Source: a bacterium
GTDB taxonomy: Bacteria; Vulcanimicrobiota; Vulcanimicrobiia; Vulcanimicrobiales; Vulcanimicrobiaceae
Length of the DNA stretch: 64,000 bases
Assembly: GCA_021832345.1 (NCBI GenBank)
Contig: JAKBKY010000007.1
Span: 1 to 64,000 of the forward strand
Direction of reading: 5' to 3'
In this document: positions 10,466 to 17,496 of the stretch, one piece after another
Layout of the letters: every line of letters begins with the position of its first letter
How positions within the stretch are numbered: the stretch's first letter is position 1
The notes under the pieces: generated by a model
Told to the model about the DNA's origin: nothing
Databases searched by the model: none
What the model saw: only the letters and a program-made list of their open reading frames with translations
Position numbers and translations under genes: made by a program

Positions 10466-11491
10466 GTGACGGGATTCTTGCTCGGCCGCGAAGCCTATCT
10501 CAATGTCTTTTCGCTGCACTTCGCAAGTCAGGGGCTGCAAGACGGCTTCCTCATCATTTCCCCGATCGTCGGTGCGCTCATTGGTTTGGCAGTCGCACCG
10601 ATCGCGCAAGCGGTCTTTGAAACGGAACTCTCCAGCGCAGAGGGTGCGATAGATCGCTTGGCGCCGGCCGAGATCTTGGGCGGGGCGCTCGGGTTGATCG
10701 TGGGCCTCATCGTCTCGTTCTTGGTGAAGAGCGTTCTCTTTGAATCGATTGCGATCGCCGGCAAGCCGGGTAGTTATATTGCGATCGCGCTCTATATCAT
10801 CGTGAGTATCTTCACGGCATATCTGGGGGCACGGGTAGGTGCGAAGAATCGCTTGGCCCCGTTTGTGGCACCACGCGGCCTGAACACCGGCACGTCAAAA
10901 GTGATCGATACGTCGGTGATCGTCGATGGGCGGATTGTCGAGATCATCGAGAGTGGATTCTTGGAAGGCCCGCTGATCGTACCGCGTTTCGTTCTGCGCG
11001 AACTTCAGGCGATCGCTGATTCAGCCGATTCGCTCAAACGGACGCGCGGGCGTCGCGGGCTGGAAGTCTTGGCGCGCCTTCAGGAGCGTGCGGTGCTCGA
11101 GATAGGAGAGCGCGATTACGATGACCTTCCTCCCGGCAGTGTCGATGCAAAACTCGTGCGCTTGGCGCGCGAACTTGGCGCGAAGCTCGTCACCAATGAC
11201 TTCAACCTCAATCAAGTGGCGCACGTGGAGGGAGTTGCGGTGCTCAACATCAACGAGCTGGCCGGAGCGGTGAAACCGGCCGTTCTCCCTGGAGAAGAAC
11301 TTCATGTCAGCGTCATCCGTGAAGGCAAGGAACCGCAGCAGGGAGTCGGATATCTCGATGACGGCACGATGATCATCGTTGAGAATGGGCGACGCTCGGT
11401 TGGAAGCGATGTCGACGTGGTGGTGACAAGTGTCCTACAGACGGCCGCTGGGCGAATGATCTTCGCCCGGCGGCGCGACGGTGTTCGCTAG
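10466..11491 (+). CDS. PIN/TRAM domain membrane protein (YacL-like)
   Basis: About four hydrophobic N-terminal segments are followed by a PIN nuclease-fold domain beginning [11 protein letters not shown] near residue 147. A C-terminal TRAM domain ([13 protein letters not shown]...[11 protein letters not shown]) ends the protein. The same architecture in Bacillus YacL is encoded just before ispD, as here. Its role is not firmly known; RNA binding or cleavage is plausible. The GTG at 10466 cuts into the first membrane helix. The frame is open back to 10379 with no ATG, GTG or TTG, so the real start may be an unusual codon (for example CTG at 10436 or ATT at 10400). Confidence 0.85.
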
Positions 11492-12195
11492 TGCGCTGGT
11501 GCGCGGTGGTGGTGGCTGCCGGGCGCGGTACGCGCTTTGGCGCTCCGAAACAACTCGTCGATCTCGCAGGCGCGCCGTTGCTCGCGTGGTCGCTGCGATG
11601 CTTTGCTCTCGTCGCGCAGATCCAAGGGGTTGTGATCGTTACCGAAAGCGAATGGTTGGATCAGGTGCGTGATCTGTGCCGGGCAGAGGTGCGTGTGCCC
11701 GCGTGCGAGGTCGTCCCCGGCGGGGCGACGCGCCAGGAGAGCGTTAGGCTCGGGTTATCGTCGGTGCCGTCCGGCTTTGACGCCGTCTTGGTGCACGATG
11801 GAGCCCGCCCACTCGTCTTAGCGCAGGACGTGTGCCGTGGGATGGAGGCGGTCGGCGCCGGGAGGGCGGCGATTCTGGCAGCCCCGGTCGTAGACACGAT
11901 CAAACAAGTTCGTTCGCTGCAGCTCGTGGTCGCCGCCACGTTGCCTCGCGCGGGGTTGTGGGCGGCGCAGACGCCGCAGTTCGCGCTACTCGATGATCTG
12001 CGGAGCGCTCACGCCCGTGCGTATGACGACGGCGTGCAGGCCACCGATGACGCCGCGCTCCTGGAGCGGCTCGGCATGGAGGTCGCTATCGTTGCCGTCA
12101 GCGGTGAGAATTTCAAGGTGACGTATCCGGCAGATATCGAGCGTGCCGCCGTCGTGCTCAAAGCGCGCCGAGCCGGTGTCGAGGTGCCCTCGTAA
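11491..12195 (+). CDS. ispD: 2-C-methyl-D-erythritol 4-phosphate cytidylyltransferase
   Basis: The 234-residue enzyme adds CMP to methylerythritol phosphate in the MEP isoprenoid pathway. Seen motifs are the N-terminal AAGRGTRFG CTP-binding loop, VPGGATRQESV, VLVHDGARP and AAQTPQ. The start is GTG. It shares one base with the preceding PIN/TRAM gene and with ispF, so the three are translationally linked. Confidence 0.94.
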   Translation: MRWCAVVVAAGRGTRFGAPKQLVDLAGAPLLAWSLRCFALVAQIQGVVIVTESEWLDQVRDLCRAEVRVPACEVVPGGATRQESVRLGLSSVPSGFDAVLVHDGARPLVLAQDVCRGMEAVGAGRAAILAAPVVDTIKQVRSLQLVVAATLPRAGLWAAQTPQFALLDDLRSAHARAYDDGVQATDDAALLERLGMEVAIVAVSGENFKVTYPADIERAAVVLKARRAGVEVPS

Positions 12196-12674
12196 TGCGG
12201 ATCGGTCACGGCTTCGACGCGCATCGTTTGGCTGCCGGGCGCCGCTTTCTGCTGGCCGGCGTCGAGATCGAGGCGCAGGTGGGTCCGCTCGGTTACTCCG
12301 ATGCGGATCTGCTGGCGCATGCGGTGGCCGATGCCGTCTTGGGCGCCGCAGCGTTAGGCGATCTCGGCGAACACTTCCCATCGAGCGACGAACGTTTTCG
12401 CGATGCCGATTCCATGGAGCTGTTGCGCGCCTGCGTCGCGATGCTGCATCGAGCTGGGTATACCGTCAAGAATGTCGATGCGACGGTGGTGCTCGAGCGT
12501 CCGCATCTGGCCCGCTATGCGGCCCGGATGCGTTCTGCCTTGGCCGAGAGTCTGGGCATCCCGACGGGTGCCGTCAGCGTGAAGGCCAAGAGCAGCGACG
12601 GCCTGGGATACACGGGCGACGGCAGCGGCATCGCCGTCTATGCGGTTGCTTCTATCGAGGAGAGCAGGTTGTGA
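12195..12674 (+). CDS. ispF: 2-C-methyl-D-erythritol 2,4-cyclodiphosphate synthase
   Basis: The 159-residue enzyme acts after ispD in the MEP pathway. The N-terminal RIGHGFDAHR carries the zinc-binding Asp and His; LLAGVEI, GYSDADLLAHAVADA, FPSSDERF and KAKSSDGLGYTG are all canonical. The ATG overlaps the ispD stop (TAATG). The stop overlaps the next GTG start. Confidence 0.96.
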   Translation: MRIGHGFDAHRLAAGRRFLLAGVEIEAQVGPLGYSDADLLAHAVADAVLGAAALGDLGEHFPSSDERFRDADSMELLRACVAMLHRAGYTVKNVDATVVLERPHLARYAARMRSALAESLGIPTGAVSVKAKSSDGLGYTGDGSGIAVYAVASIEESRL

Positions 12675-13225
12675 GCGACCGGCGCGCTACGGCGCTGGCG
12701 GCGCTGATGCAGCAGTGGGGATTCCTTGAGAGCCCGCCGCCGCCGGCTGCGCTGCGCTGGATTGCGATCTTTCTCGATGCGTACGGCCAGCGGCTGCAGA
12801 GTCTCGATGAGGCTGCGCCCTTTGTCGCTGCTTTGCGGGAAGAGGCCTGCTTCGTGCCGGCGTTGGAGCTGGAGCGGCTGCGCCGCCGCGAGGTGCTCTT
12901 CTTTCTGGATACGGTGGCTCAGTACGTCGACGACCAGCCGGAGCTCATGGGCTTGCCGCTCGAAGAGGATCTGCCCGTCATCGCCGCAGAGTTTGGGCTC
13001 TCGGCCGAGGACGGCGAACGTGCGCTGGCGATGGCGTTGACCGGAACGCTGGACGGGCCACCCTTGAGGTTGCTCTTCCCGTTGCTCGGGCACGACCGCA
13101 TCCTGATACGAATCGGAGCGATCAACTCGAAGCTGCTGCACGGCCGCGGCTTGGAACCGATCGCTTTCGGCCCCGATGGGAGACCGTTCGAGCCGATTCG
13201 GGGGAGCAAGCCCAACGCCTGCTAA
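12671..13225 (+). CDS. Stand-alone domain resembling the GluRS anticodon-binding region
   Basis: The 184-residue product is entirely helical in character and resembles the C-terminal anticodon-binding part of glutamyl-tRNA synthetase (GltX). The best match is the late ALTGTLDGPPL...LFPLLGHDRILIRI stretch, which mirrors the ALTGR.SGP...LLG...RI ending of GltX. No catalytic HIGH or KMSKS motif is present. The GTG start overlaps the ispF stop by 4 nt. It could be a paralogue split from gltX, a regulator, or a partner of a truncated synthetase elsewhere. The fold assignment is by motif only. Confidence 0.6.
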   Translation: MSDRRATALAALMQQWGFLESPPPPAALRWIAIFLDAYGQRLQSLDEAAPFVAALREEACFVPALELERLRRREVLFFLDTVAQYVDDQPELMGLPLEEDLPVIAAEFGLSAEDGERALAMALTGTLDGPPLRLLFPLLGHDRILIRIGAINSKLLHGRGLEPIAFGPDGRPFEPIRGSKPNAC

Positions 13226-13264: not shown

Positions 13265-13939
13265 ATGGCCGCACCATTAAAAACCTTCCTCGCCGATCTC
13301 CACGCTCCGCTAGAACGCGACCCCGCGGTCCGTGGAGTCTTCGATGTGCTGCTTTCGTATCCGGGGTTTCATGCCCTCACGGCGCACCGCATCATCCATG
13401 CTCTCCACGGGCTGCACGTTCCGTTCCTGCCGCGCTTTCTCTCGCACGTCGTGCGTTTTCTCACCGGAATCGAGATCCATCCCGCTGCCCTCATCGGCCC
13501 GGGGCTCTTCATCGATCACGGCATGGGAGTGGTCATCGGCGAGACGGCAGAGGTCGGCGAGAACTGCACAATCTATCAGGGGGTGACGCTTGGCGGCACC
13601 GGTCTCTCGCACGGCAAGCGGCATCCGACGCTGGGCAGGGGAGTGACCGTTGGGGTGCATGCCTGTGTGCTGGGAGCGATCACCGTCGGAGACTACTCCA
13701 AAGTCGGCGGCGGCTCGGTGGTCGTCAAGGATGTGCCTCCCAACAGCACGGTTGTCGGTATCCCCGCTCGCGTCGTGATGCAAGATGGCCGGCCGGTGCA
13801 TGCGGTGGGGGAGCGGCCCCAGGTCGATATGCCGGACCCCAATGCCGAACTGATCGCTCGGCTGAGCGCACGAGTTGCAGAGCTCGAGCGCCGCTTAGCA
13901 ACTCGTTCGAAAGGCGATGATGCCGCTACGGCTGTATAA
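13265..13939 (+). CDS. cysE: Serine O-acetyltransferase
   Basis: The 224-residue enzyme acetylates serine for cysteine synthesis. A helical N-terminal part (about 1-75) precedes a left-handed beta-helix of hexapeptide repeats: IEIHPAALIGPGLFIDHG, GVVIGETAEVG, YQGVTLGGTG, KRHPTLGRGV, VVVKDVPPNSTVVGIPARVV. The catalytic His in IDHG is present. A TAGACT hexamer at 13251-13256 lies only 8 nt before the ATG, so a very short leader is possible. It overlaps cysS by 23 nt, a common pairing that links cysteine supply with its tRNA charging. Confidence 0.93.
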   Translation: MAAPLKTFLADLHAPLERDPAVRGVFDVLLSYPGFHALTAHRIIHALHGLHVPFLPRFLSHVVRFLTGIEIHPAALIGPGLFIDHGMGVVIGETAEVGENCTIYQGVTLGGTGLSHGKRHPTLGRGVTVGVHACVLGAITVGDYSKVGGGSVVVKDVPPNSTVVGIPARVVMQDGRPVHAVGERPQVDMPDPNAELIARLSARVAELERRLATRSKGDDAATAV

Positions 13940-15344
13940 CACGCGCACTCGCTCGACGCAGAGTTTCGTGCCGCTACGCGACGATGGCGTGCGCATCTAC
14001 GTCTGCGGGCTGACGCCCTCCGCGCAGGCGCATCTCGGCCACGCTCGATCGTTCATCTTCTTCGATCTGTTACGGCGGTATCTCTTGCATCGCGGATATC
14101 GCGTGACCTACGTTCAAAACGTCACCGACATCGACGATCGGAGCATCGCTGCCGCCGCCGAAACAGGAAAGCGCTGGGATGAGGTCGTCGCGCAGTTTTA
14201 CGCATCGTTTAAGGACTCGATGAAGAAGCTGGGCGTGCGCGATCCCGACGTCGAGCCCTATGCTACGCGGTATGTTCCGCAGATCATCGAAACCATTGCG
14301 TCGCTTTTGGAGCGTGGCCACGCCTACGTTGCACAAGACGGCGTCTACTACCGGGTCGCGAGCTTCCCATCCTACGGTGAGTTGTCCCATCGGCGGATCG
14401 AGGAGCTTGAGGCAGGGGCGCGCGTGGCGATCGATGAGGCGAAGGACGATCCGCTCGACTTTGCGCTGTGGAAGTTCGCTAAACCCGGCGAGCCGTCGTG
14501 GCCTTCGCCCTGGGGCAGCGGCCGCCCGGGTTGGCACATCGAGTGTTCGGCGATGTCGCGGGCACTGCTCGACCCGGAAGGCATCGGGTTTGATATCCAT
14601 GGCGGTGGAGCCGACTTGATCTTCCCGCACCATGAGAACGAAGTTGCCCAGAGCGAGCCGCTGATGGAGCGCCCCCCGATGGCACAGTTCTGGGTCCATG
14701 GCGGGCTGCTGTTGCGTGACGGCAAGAAGATGAGTAAGTCGCTTGGGAACTTTGAGCCGTTGGCACAGGTGCTGGATCGGCACGACCCGCAGGCCGTGCG
14801 GCTGATGTTCTTGCAGACCGGCTACGGCAAGGTGATGAACTATACCGAGGAGTCACTGCTTGCGGCGCGGTCGGTCTTGGAGCGTCTGAAGGCGTCCTAC
14901 CGCGCGGCTGCGTCGGCGCGTGGCCCCGGAACGGGCGGTGCGCTGCTGGCCCGCATTGAGGCGGCACTCGATGATGACATGAATACGGCAGTCGCGCTGA
15001 GCGCACTTTTGGATGCCAAGGCGCGCGAAGCCGGGGTCGAAGAACTCTACAGCGCCCTCGACCTTTTGGGGTTGACGCCCGATGTTGCCTGGGAGCAGTC
15101 GCCGATCGCCGCGCTGCCGCCGCAGTTCCTCGAACGCGTCGCCGCGGAGCTCTCCGTTGGGCCGGGCATCGACCTCGATGCAACGAAACCGCAAGAGGTG
15201 CTTGAGCGATTGATTGCGCTACGCGTCCAGGCTCGCGCACGCAAGGACTGGGCTGAATCGGATCGTCTACGCAAGGCGCTTGCGGCCGGCGGCATCGAAG
15301 TTCACGACGACCGGGAGGGCACGACGTGGAGCGTCGTCAGCTAA
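13917..15344 (+). CDS. cysS: Cysteine--tRNA ligase
   Basis: The 475-residue class I synthetase has zinc-binding VCGLTPSA, the HLGHAR (HIGH-type) motif near residue 39, WHIECSAM, HHENEVAQSE and KKMSKSLGN near residue 271. A DALR-type helical domain ends it. Two adjacent ATGs (13917 and 13920) are possible starts. The 5' end lies inside cysE and the 3' end overlaps rlmB by 19 nt. Confidence 0.96.
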   Translation: MMPLRLYNTRTRSTQSFVPLRDDGVRIYVCGLTPSAQAHLGHARSFIFFDLLRRYLLHRGYRVTYVQNVTDIDDRSIAAAAETGKRWDEVVAQFYASFKDSMKKLGVRDPDVEPYATRYVPQIIETIASLLERGHAYVAQDGVYYRVASFPSYGELSHRRIEELEAGARVAIDEAKDDPLDFALWKFAKPGEPSWPSPWGSGRPGWHIECSAMSRALLDPEGIGFDIHGGGADLIFPHHENEVAQSEPLMERPPMAQFWVHGGLLLRDGKKMSKSLGNFEPLAQVLDRHDPQAVRLMFLQTGYGKVMNYTEESLLAARSVLERLKASYRAAASARGPGTGGALLARIEAALDDDMNTAVALSALLDAKAREAGVEELYSALDLLGLTPDVAWEQSPIAALPPQFLERVAAELSVGPGIDLDATKPQEVLERLIALRVQARARKDWAESDRLRKALAAGGIEVHDDREGTTWSVVS

Positions 15345-16931: not shown

Positions 16932-17007
16932 TGGAGCCGACGGTGGGACTCGAACCCACGATTGGCAGTTTACAAAACTGCTGCTGTAGCCGCTGAGCCA
17001 CGCCGGC
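16932..17007 (-). tRNA. tRNA-Thr (anticodon TGT)
   Basis: The reverse strand folds as a full cloverleaf: acceptor GCCGGCG/CGTCGGC, anticodon stem GCAGT/ACTGC with loop TTTGTAA, T-arm GTGGG TTCGAGT CCCAC. TCCA at the 3' end (16935-16932) is genome-encoded. It lies opposite in orientation to the three tRNAs that follow. Confidence 0.93.
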
Positions 17008-17159
17008 CGAGATGTTGGCGTTCGCGCCTGGCGGGGTTCAACGTTGCAACCGGCCTTCCTGGGATTCCTACGGGTCCTCGTGGAGGGTACGGTGGCGTCG
17101 ATGAGAAGTGGTGACGAGGAGTTGGGTGCGGTCGCAGCGTACCTGGGCCCGTCACGCCT

Positions 17160-17244
17160 GGGTAGGTGGCCGAGTGGTTAATGGCACCAGACTGTAAATT
17201 TGGCGCGCGAAAGCGCTACGCTGGTTCGAATCCAGCCCTGCCCA
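17160..17244 (+). tRNA. tRNA-Tyr (anticodon GTA)
   Basis: Class II tRNA with a 7-bp acceptor GGGTAGG/CCTGCCC, anticodon loop CTGTAAA and a long variable arm (GCGCG CGAAAG CGC). The 3' CCA is not encoded, unlike its neighbours. Confidence 0.94.
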
Positions 17245-17263
17245 AACTTCGCCCTAGACGCCG

Positions 17264-17337
17264 GCGGGCGTTGCATAATGGTAATGCCCTTGCCTTCCAA
17301 GCAAGAGTCGCGGGTTCGATTCCCGCCGCCCGCTCCA
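17264..17337 (+). tRNA. tRNA-Gly (anticodon TCC)
   Basis: Acceptor GCGGGCG/CGCCCGC, anticodon stem CTTGC/GCAAG with loop CTTCCAA, T-arm GCGGG TTCGATT CCCGC; encoded CCA at 17335-17337. Confidence 0.94.
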
Positions 17338-17421
17338 GGACCCGCGACGCTCTCCCGGGCGCGCAGGGTCACGAGGCGGCGGTCGCGTAAGAACCTCTGC
17401 TCAAGACGCTGGTCGCAGCGG

Positions 17422-17496
17422 GCCGTTGTAGCTCAGTGGTAGAGCACGTCCTTGGTAAGGACGAGGCCATGGGTTCAATCCCCATCAACGGCTCCA
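17422..17496 (+). tRNA. tRNA-Thr (anticodon GGT)
   Basis: Acceptor GCCGTTG/CAACGGC, anticodon stem CGTCC/GGACG with loop TTGGTAA, T-arm ATGGG TTCAATC CCCAT; encoded CCA. The Thr-Tyr-Gly-Thr set with these anticodons matches the tRNA cluster found before tufB in Escherichia coli, but tuf is absent here. Confidence 0.94.

Follow-up and report, generated by a model that had tools for sequence, protein, structure and literature searches.

This locus raises the question of what a 184 residue protein resembling only the end of a glutamyl-tRNA synthetase (GluRS, GltX) is doing between ispF and cysE in a genome of the Vulcanimicrobiaceae, and where it came from. Its gene is intact, begins with GTG and lies at 12671-13225 (+) of the window, by which we mean the whole 64,000 nucleotide stretch analysed (positions 1 to 64,000 of contig JAKBKY010000007.1). 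An open frame of such length is no evidence by itself, spurious ORFs being abundant in window DNA; this one is lifted above chance by the combination of a Pfam match, a confident model resembling the GluRS anticodon-binding domain (ABD), homologues in other genomes and low dN/dS. We therefore describe it as a stand-alone GluRS ABD protein, called the orphan below.

Anticodon_2 (PF19269) is the sole Pfam domain found in the orphan, scoring 26.1 bits where the cut-off is 23.6, a narrow margin; it covers residues 9-149 (12695-13117, +), which the Pfam and structure matches equate with residues 323-468 of T. thermophilus GluRS. The class I catalytic domain that carries HIGH and KMSKS (PF00749) has no match either in the ORF or adjoining it. 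The AlphaFold2 model (mean pLDDT 94.4, pTM 0.88) has the all-helical fold of the GluRS C-terminus: the first 23 entries of the structural list are GluRS, with Z from 9.5 to 16.1, and the solved structures that match best are without exception ABDs of bacterial GluRS, headed by the non-discriminating GluRS of Thermosynechococcus (2cfo_A; Z 16.1, rmsd 2.5, 156 aligned, VIA-align). Against residues 323-468 of the 1gln chain (T. thermophilus GluRS) Z is 13.7, and the best 38 rows of a Foldseek search with the same model are GluRS structures; structure-search rows ranked lower than GluRS and class I LysRS (Z < 4) were treated as unrelated folds. A single-sequence search of the PDB is weak and not significant (best E 0.24), and a profile of the family, built from 28 relatives, reaches GluRS there at E 2.5e-4. 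Homologues with 59-70% identity occur in 27 other genomes, and all 28 aligned sequences, which span genera, have an open frame. Compared with the C-terminal ABD of bacterial GluRS, the orphan has the same fold, a similar length and the motif ALTG...GP.L..LLG, but it has no catalytic domain, carries an extra invariant segment (residues 56-108) and a C-terminal tail, and is more acidic. The first-pass annotation, made from the letters alone, had likened the protein to the end of GltX with no catalytic part and had named a fold search returning another family as the result that would overturn this; the best matches being GluRS ABDs, that description stands.

The gene is embedded in a run of same-strand neighbours. 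Upstream lie ispD (11491-12195, +) and ispF (12195-12674, +), and the TGA stop of ispF (12672-12674) overlaps the GTG start of the orphan (12671-12673) by four bases (12671-12674, +); of 26 orphan loci with ispF, 14 show the same -4 spacing. Downstream follow cysE (13265-13939, +), cysS (13917-15344, +) and then rlmB; just past a sigma-factor-like gene after rlmB the window also holds four tRNA genes (Thr, Tyr, Gly, Thr; 16932-17496). Among 57 related loci, cysS is downstream in 56, cysE downstream in 54 and ispF upstream in 47. In one locus (L120) the gene has neither cysE nor cysS beside it. Three loci of genus g9 (L200 in G008, L197 in G154, L198 in G156) have the orphan about 3 kb from ispF and directly before cysS, with cysE not found there. 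Two records labelled Rhodospirillales (L129, L134) carry an ispF-orphan-cysE-cysS locus of the Eremiobacterota type and are probably mislabelled genomes. Coupling to ispF, which had been proposed for this locus, holds as an operon overlap, but nothing was found suggesting a functional link to isoprenoid synthesis.

The genome itself (2.34 Mb, 98% complete) bears on whether the orphan could be one piece of a split gltX. Its sole PF00749 enzyme is a complete GltX on contig C3, beside glmU, whose closest PDB entries are the GluRS of Pseudomonas aeruginosa (638 bits) and then that of Moraxella (583 bits). This resident GltX has a full ABD of its own (98 bits; 94.6 bits in a second search) and belongs to a different, foreign clade of gammaproteobacterial type. 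The idea that the present gltX lacks the domain and that the orphan supplies it, for which the suggestion in the first-pass annotation is the only point, is thereby ruled out, and we leave it practically no probability. A domain shuffle, in which the resident GltX would join a site-I catalytic part to a site-G ABD (sites as defined below), is rejected as well: both halves fall in one foreign clade, nearest in the PDB to P. aeruginosa GluRS. GatB is present, no second PF00749 protein that could be GlnRS was found in the genome, and ARAGORN detects tRNA-Gln (TTG, CTG) and tRNA-Glu (TTC, CTC). With GatB present and GlnRS missing, the resident GltX would have to charge tRNA-Glu and, via amidation, tRNA-Gln.

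Comparison with other Candidatus Eremiobacterota points to the origin of the orphan. Beyond the window's family, and in a few of its members, relatives carry a pair of native gltX genes: one lies next to glmU (site G), and the other, complete, fills the gap between ispF and cysE-cysS (site I). Most members of the window's family have a foreign-type GltX at site G and the ABD alone at site I. A catalytic-domain tree of 53 rows shows three groups, of foreign site-G proteins (support 100), of native site-G proteins (99) and of eroded site-I proteins, those with broken active-site motifs (99), the last nested within site I. In an ABD tree of 100 rows, the 56 orphans, 7 eroded proteins and 2 complete f1 GltX-I domains form one group (97). 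That group is nested among the site-I ABDs of the class (95), and the site-G ABDs, native and foreign alike, fall outside these. Both trees were built with foreign GltX rows thinned, with the GltX of G018 left out, and without G057a and G058a, which were judged by eye from their motifs to be GlnRS. Synteny, the ABD tree and what looks like a GltX N-terminal peptide at 5 of 56 orphan loci (see below) agree on descent from a gltX at the same locus, and the proposal that the gene is what remains of gltX at its ancestral site is borne out to that extent. As judged from these comparisons, the orphan is almost certainly the ABD of a former second native GluRS, GltX-I.

Five genomes of the family have a site-I GltX with its signatures preserved (G004, G005, G022, G026, G031), and all five carry a native GltX at site G. 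Every other family GltX examined falls in the foreign clade except that of G151, the GltX of G018 being placed by comparison only. At the gltX-glmU site of G000 (G000:C3:263250-264659, locus L001) and of most others in the family, the native gene has been swapped in place for a gammaproteobacterial-type GltX, glmU surroundings being the same. The GltX of G151 (G151:C18:24706-25584; L282, L284) is a third, divergent type, 40% identical to the foreign clade and about 33% to native GltX; this genome also has an eroded site-I GltX, and no glmU lies within the 9 kb examined around its GltX.

Living relatives keep a series that runs from complete GltX-I, through GltX-I with broken active-site motifs and an intact ABD, to the ABD alone. 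Site-I GltX with both a catalytic part and an orphan-type ABD is found in G004, where it matches solved GluRS across most of its length, in G031, and in G026, where it ends at a contig end. In G031 (G031:C184:2409-3934, L067) the ABD is split over two frames, either a real frameshift or an assembly error. Seven eroded site-I proteins (L135, L137, L151-L154, L157) have KLSKR altered or missing and a putative zinc-domain region of about 35-40 residues deleted, with ABD and tail intact; L137 has lost HIGH too, and the site-I GltX of G151 is an eighth eroded case. The predicted structure of an eroded GltX-I was poor (pLDDT 65.5, with most ten-residue ABD blocks below 45 on a shallow alignment) and was set aside. 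A 438 residue site-I GltX in G005 (G005:C1:831041-832291, L064) has HIGH and KLSKR intact and the putative zinc-binding region deleted, and is possibly a minimal GluRS.

At the far end of the series, 5 of 56 distinct orphan loci (G003, G030, G007, G017, G154) have a start codon and a peptide resembling the GltX-I N-terminus in frame before the ABD, for example MTILDYSQPP as compared with MTRLDYDVPQRV of the G005 GltX-I, against 0 of 112 matches in other frames; such peptides are apparent scars of internal deletion. Genus g9 holds eroded genes (8) and ABD-only genes (G008, G154, G156) together. With rows G026I and G040Ic absent from the topology test, the orphan state formed one clade in 0 of 200 bootstrap trees, and an AU test did not reject a single orphan clade (p 0.083). 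Several independent truncations are thus favoured, though not proven.

Of the 149 phylum genomes scanned with the profile, 72 carry the domain (E <= 1e-15); 69 of these belong to the window's family and the other 3 to a second family within the same order. Among the 99 genomes of the window's family, 57 have it with no PF00749 match adjoining (including G138, where it lies at a contig end), 8 have the eroded form, 3 retain the catalytic part (G004, G026, G031) and 1 is without the zinc-domain region (G005). It is unmatched in the remaining 30, namely 18 of g36, 8 of g19, and G014, G021, G158 and G022, so that two whole genera are without it; G022, with no orphan-type match, has an ordinary complete site-I GltX. 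In the four domain-less genomes checked directly (G035, G014, G021, G018), ispF and cysE are adjacent. Presence in 69 of 99 family genomes and absence from 30 indicate a domain that is useful and yet dispensable.

Where it is present, it is under strong constraint. Nei-Gojobori dN/dS for 15 orphan pairs (close relatives) ranges from.027 to.181, near the values for ispF, cysE and ispD of the same genomes, and with all 28 aligned frames open there is neither the relaxed selection nor the broken frame of a pseudogene. In two eroded pairs the catalytic part has dN/dS of.217 and.382, and the ABD.083 and.174. Mean pairwise identity points the same way: in three sets of working GluRS it is higher for the catalytic part than for the ABD (.66/.386,.644/.495 and.725/.526), and in the eroded proteins this order is reversed (.668/.816); the two f1 site-I proteins with a catalytic part give.73/.661, and the 56 orphans have a mean pairwise identity of.692. 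We regard it as very probable that the orphan has a selected function of its own.

Conserved positions in the orphans are of two kinds. The classical ABD motif is kept (T124, G125, L132, G140 and R147, with R120 in 54 of 56); the window protein itself has A in place of R120, a residue that is otherwise conserved, and M in place of R93. New invariant or near-invariant residues include P63, A64, L67, E68, R69, R71, R73, D80, Q84, E91, L92, D100, E107, F108, H141 and a tail, LHGRGLxPxxxGPxGxPF. These are concentrated in residues 63-93 (12857-12949, +), where a comparison of columns finds most of them common to the GltX-I of G004 and not to other GluRS, and in the tail at residues 155-176 (13133-13198, +; LLHGRGLEPIxFGPxGxPFEPI in the alignment), which is absent from most GluRS. 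The listed residues and the tail are all present in the complete GltX-I of G004 and not in the other site-I GluRS tabulated; a similar tail ends the site-I ABD of G040, from a second family, and the orphan copy of G003 is shortened and tail-less. Since the new residues and the tail are already present in a complete enzyme, the ABD probably gained a second, non-catalytic role while still within GltX-I, before the catalytic loss.

Which tRNA the domain might read can be approached through Arg358 of T. thermophilus GluRS, a residue tied by experiment to discrimination against tRNA-Gln (cited in PMC3927822); the same passage has the Arg358 rule failing in H. pylori GluRS1. The aligned residue in the orphan is R41 (codon 12791-12793, +), and R occupies this position in 35 of 56 orphans. 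It does so in 10 of 10 native site-G GltX, in 53 of 55 rows of the foreign set (some genomes possibly entered twice under two handles, and the GltX of G018 left out) and in 0 of 14 site-I GltX, which suggests that GltX-I was probably a tRNA-Gln-tolerant enzyme. At the position of residue 435, which together with 444, 445 and 447 we take to be the contact residues other than Arg358, R is found in 54 of 56 orphans and in all 13 scorable site-I proteins. A strict need of the orphan for tRNA-Gln charging is rejected, there being no compensating change in genomes without it: their foreign GltX keeps R at 358 in 26 of 26 rows with data (28 rows in total, that of G018 being gap only, and some genomes possibly counted twice under two handles). 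At the column of T. thermophilus 356, Q stands in 50 of 67 rows with the domain, and the 28 rows without it include 16 with A and 4 with M; nothing is drawn from this column, it being the best of all those scanned (residues 330-496) and a reflection of about two genera. Mean ABD net charge is -8.2 in the orphans, -3.8 at site I, -1.4 in native site-G and +1.2 in foreign GltX. Such a turn to acidity disfavours simple RNA binding and favours a protein partner.

In lineages where the native GltX of the gltX-glmU site gave way to one of gammaproteobacterial type, the comparisons show that the catalytic half of GltX-I decayed and was then deleted, probably more than once, and that purifying selection held the ABD and tail in most genera. 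For the function we propose an accessory adaptor. The old face of the domain (T124, G125, L132 and, in most relatives, R120) may hold the anticodon arm of tRNA-Gln and/or tRNA-Glu, with the new acidic surface and tail docking on a partner such as a tRNA-modifying, charging or amidating enzyme. To this whole account, a GltX-I-derived ABD and tail kept by selection and working as an accessory adaptor, we give slightly less than an even chance; its specific core, a tRNA-binding adaptor for tRNA-Gln or tRNA-Glu that docks on a protein, we put forward more tentatively. Against an adaptor stand the acidic ABD, an Arg358 equivalent that is unfixed among the orphans, the A120 and M93 of the window protein itself and the dispensability of the domain. 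A comparable architecture, an ABD protein without a catalytic domain, is that of human DALRD3. It is a DALR anticodon-binding-domain protein that partners METTL2 as a tRNA-recognition adaptor for a modifying enzyme, according to PMC7237682. Like the orphan it is a synthetase-type ABD apart from its enzyme; it differs in ABD family and lineage, and with METTL2 it serves us as a precedent for the manner of working only, with no claim of family membership.

The acidic shift could also be read as the mark of a protein-only regulator or scaffold, in which the fold would no longer bind RNA and the invariant acidic and basic surface (residues 56-108) and tail would bind a protein, for example one of translation or of the cysteine operon. 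Most of the new invariant residues do lie outside the classical motif, and the neighbourhood with cysS has long been kept (56 of 57 loci); yet that neighbourhood may be mere inheritance, L120 having the gene without cysE or cysS, and the classical motif itself (T124-G125, L132, G140, R147, and R120 in all but two orphans) is still conserved; we consider this reading somewhat unlikely. A functionless, decaying remnant not yet lost, to which the truncation of the gene, its clean loss in several lineages and the tail-less copy in G003 could point, is very improbable and is contradicted by the low dN/dS of the 15 pairs, by 28 intact ORFs across genera, by an ABD better conserved than in working GluRS and by its new invariant residues.

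A last reading makes the orphan a second anticodon reader acting in trans, its ABD being borrowed by the resident foreign GltX for tRNA-Gln before GatCAB amidates Glu-tRNA-Gln. The genome has one GltX, no GlnRS, GatB, and isoacceptors of both tRNA-Gln (UUG, CUG) and tRNA-Glu; the foreign GltX has R at 358, where site-I GltX never had it, and, according to PMC3927822, tRNA-Gln(UUG) is not a substrate for the gamma-type GluRS1 of A. ferrooxidans. Genera without the orphan nevertheless keep the same foreign GltX with R358 and show no second synthetase above the PF00749 cut-off, and the orphan is therefore not required. We also know of no isolated ABD that docks on a GluRS catalytic core, and consider such borrowing improbable. 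A looser form, one catalytic core with two readers, in which the foreign GltX's own ABD would serve tRNA-Glu and the orphan would present tRNA-Gln in trans to GltX or GatCAB as a dispensable aid, is only a little less improbable.

Returning to the GltX-I-derived ABD, its nearest counterparts are duplicated GluRS. GluRS2 is tRNA-Gln-specific in H. pylori and inactive in T. maritima (PMC3927822); the orphan, too, descends from a second GluRS, in a genome that has GatB and no GlnRS, and its parent lacks the Arg358 discriminator. The inactive GluRS2 of the T. maritima type offers a precedent for retaining a GluRS that does not charge tRNA, although the orphan has lost the catalytic part altogether. 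The few terms looked for in the text of PMC3927822 brought up no ABD-only protein. A review of synthetase duplication names, in the passages covered, only YadB for GluRS (PMC9437257); this protein, Glu-Q-RS, is like the orphan a GluRS paralogue cut to one half, and is its mirror image, with the catalytic half kept and the ABD missing. A search of the open-access literature found no report of an ABD-only GluRS or of Eremiobacterota synthetases.

Taken together, the comparisons show that in this family of uncultured bacteria one of two GluRS genes lost its catalytic half and kept the anticodon-reading half under strong selection, and they suggest that the leftover has a job of its own. Catalytic-half paralogues are known in YadB; a bacterial GluRS reduced to its anticodon reader, with graded intermediates still living, is a natural dissection that shows which half of a duplicated synthetase repays keeping. 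Whether 'inactive' second GluRS copies in other bacteria survive on account of their tRNA-binding half becomes a testable question, and attention is drawn to a conserved but uncharacterised protein of an uncultured lineage, one that depends on a single foreign-type GluRS for charging Glu and Gln tRNAs alike.
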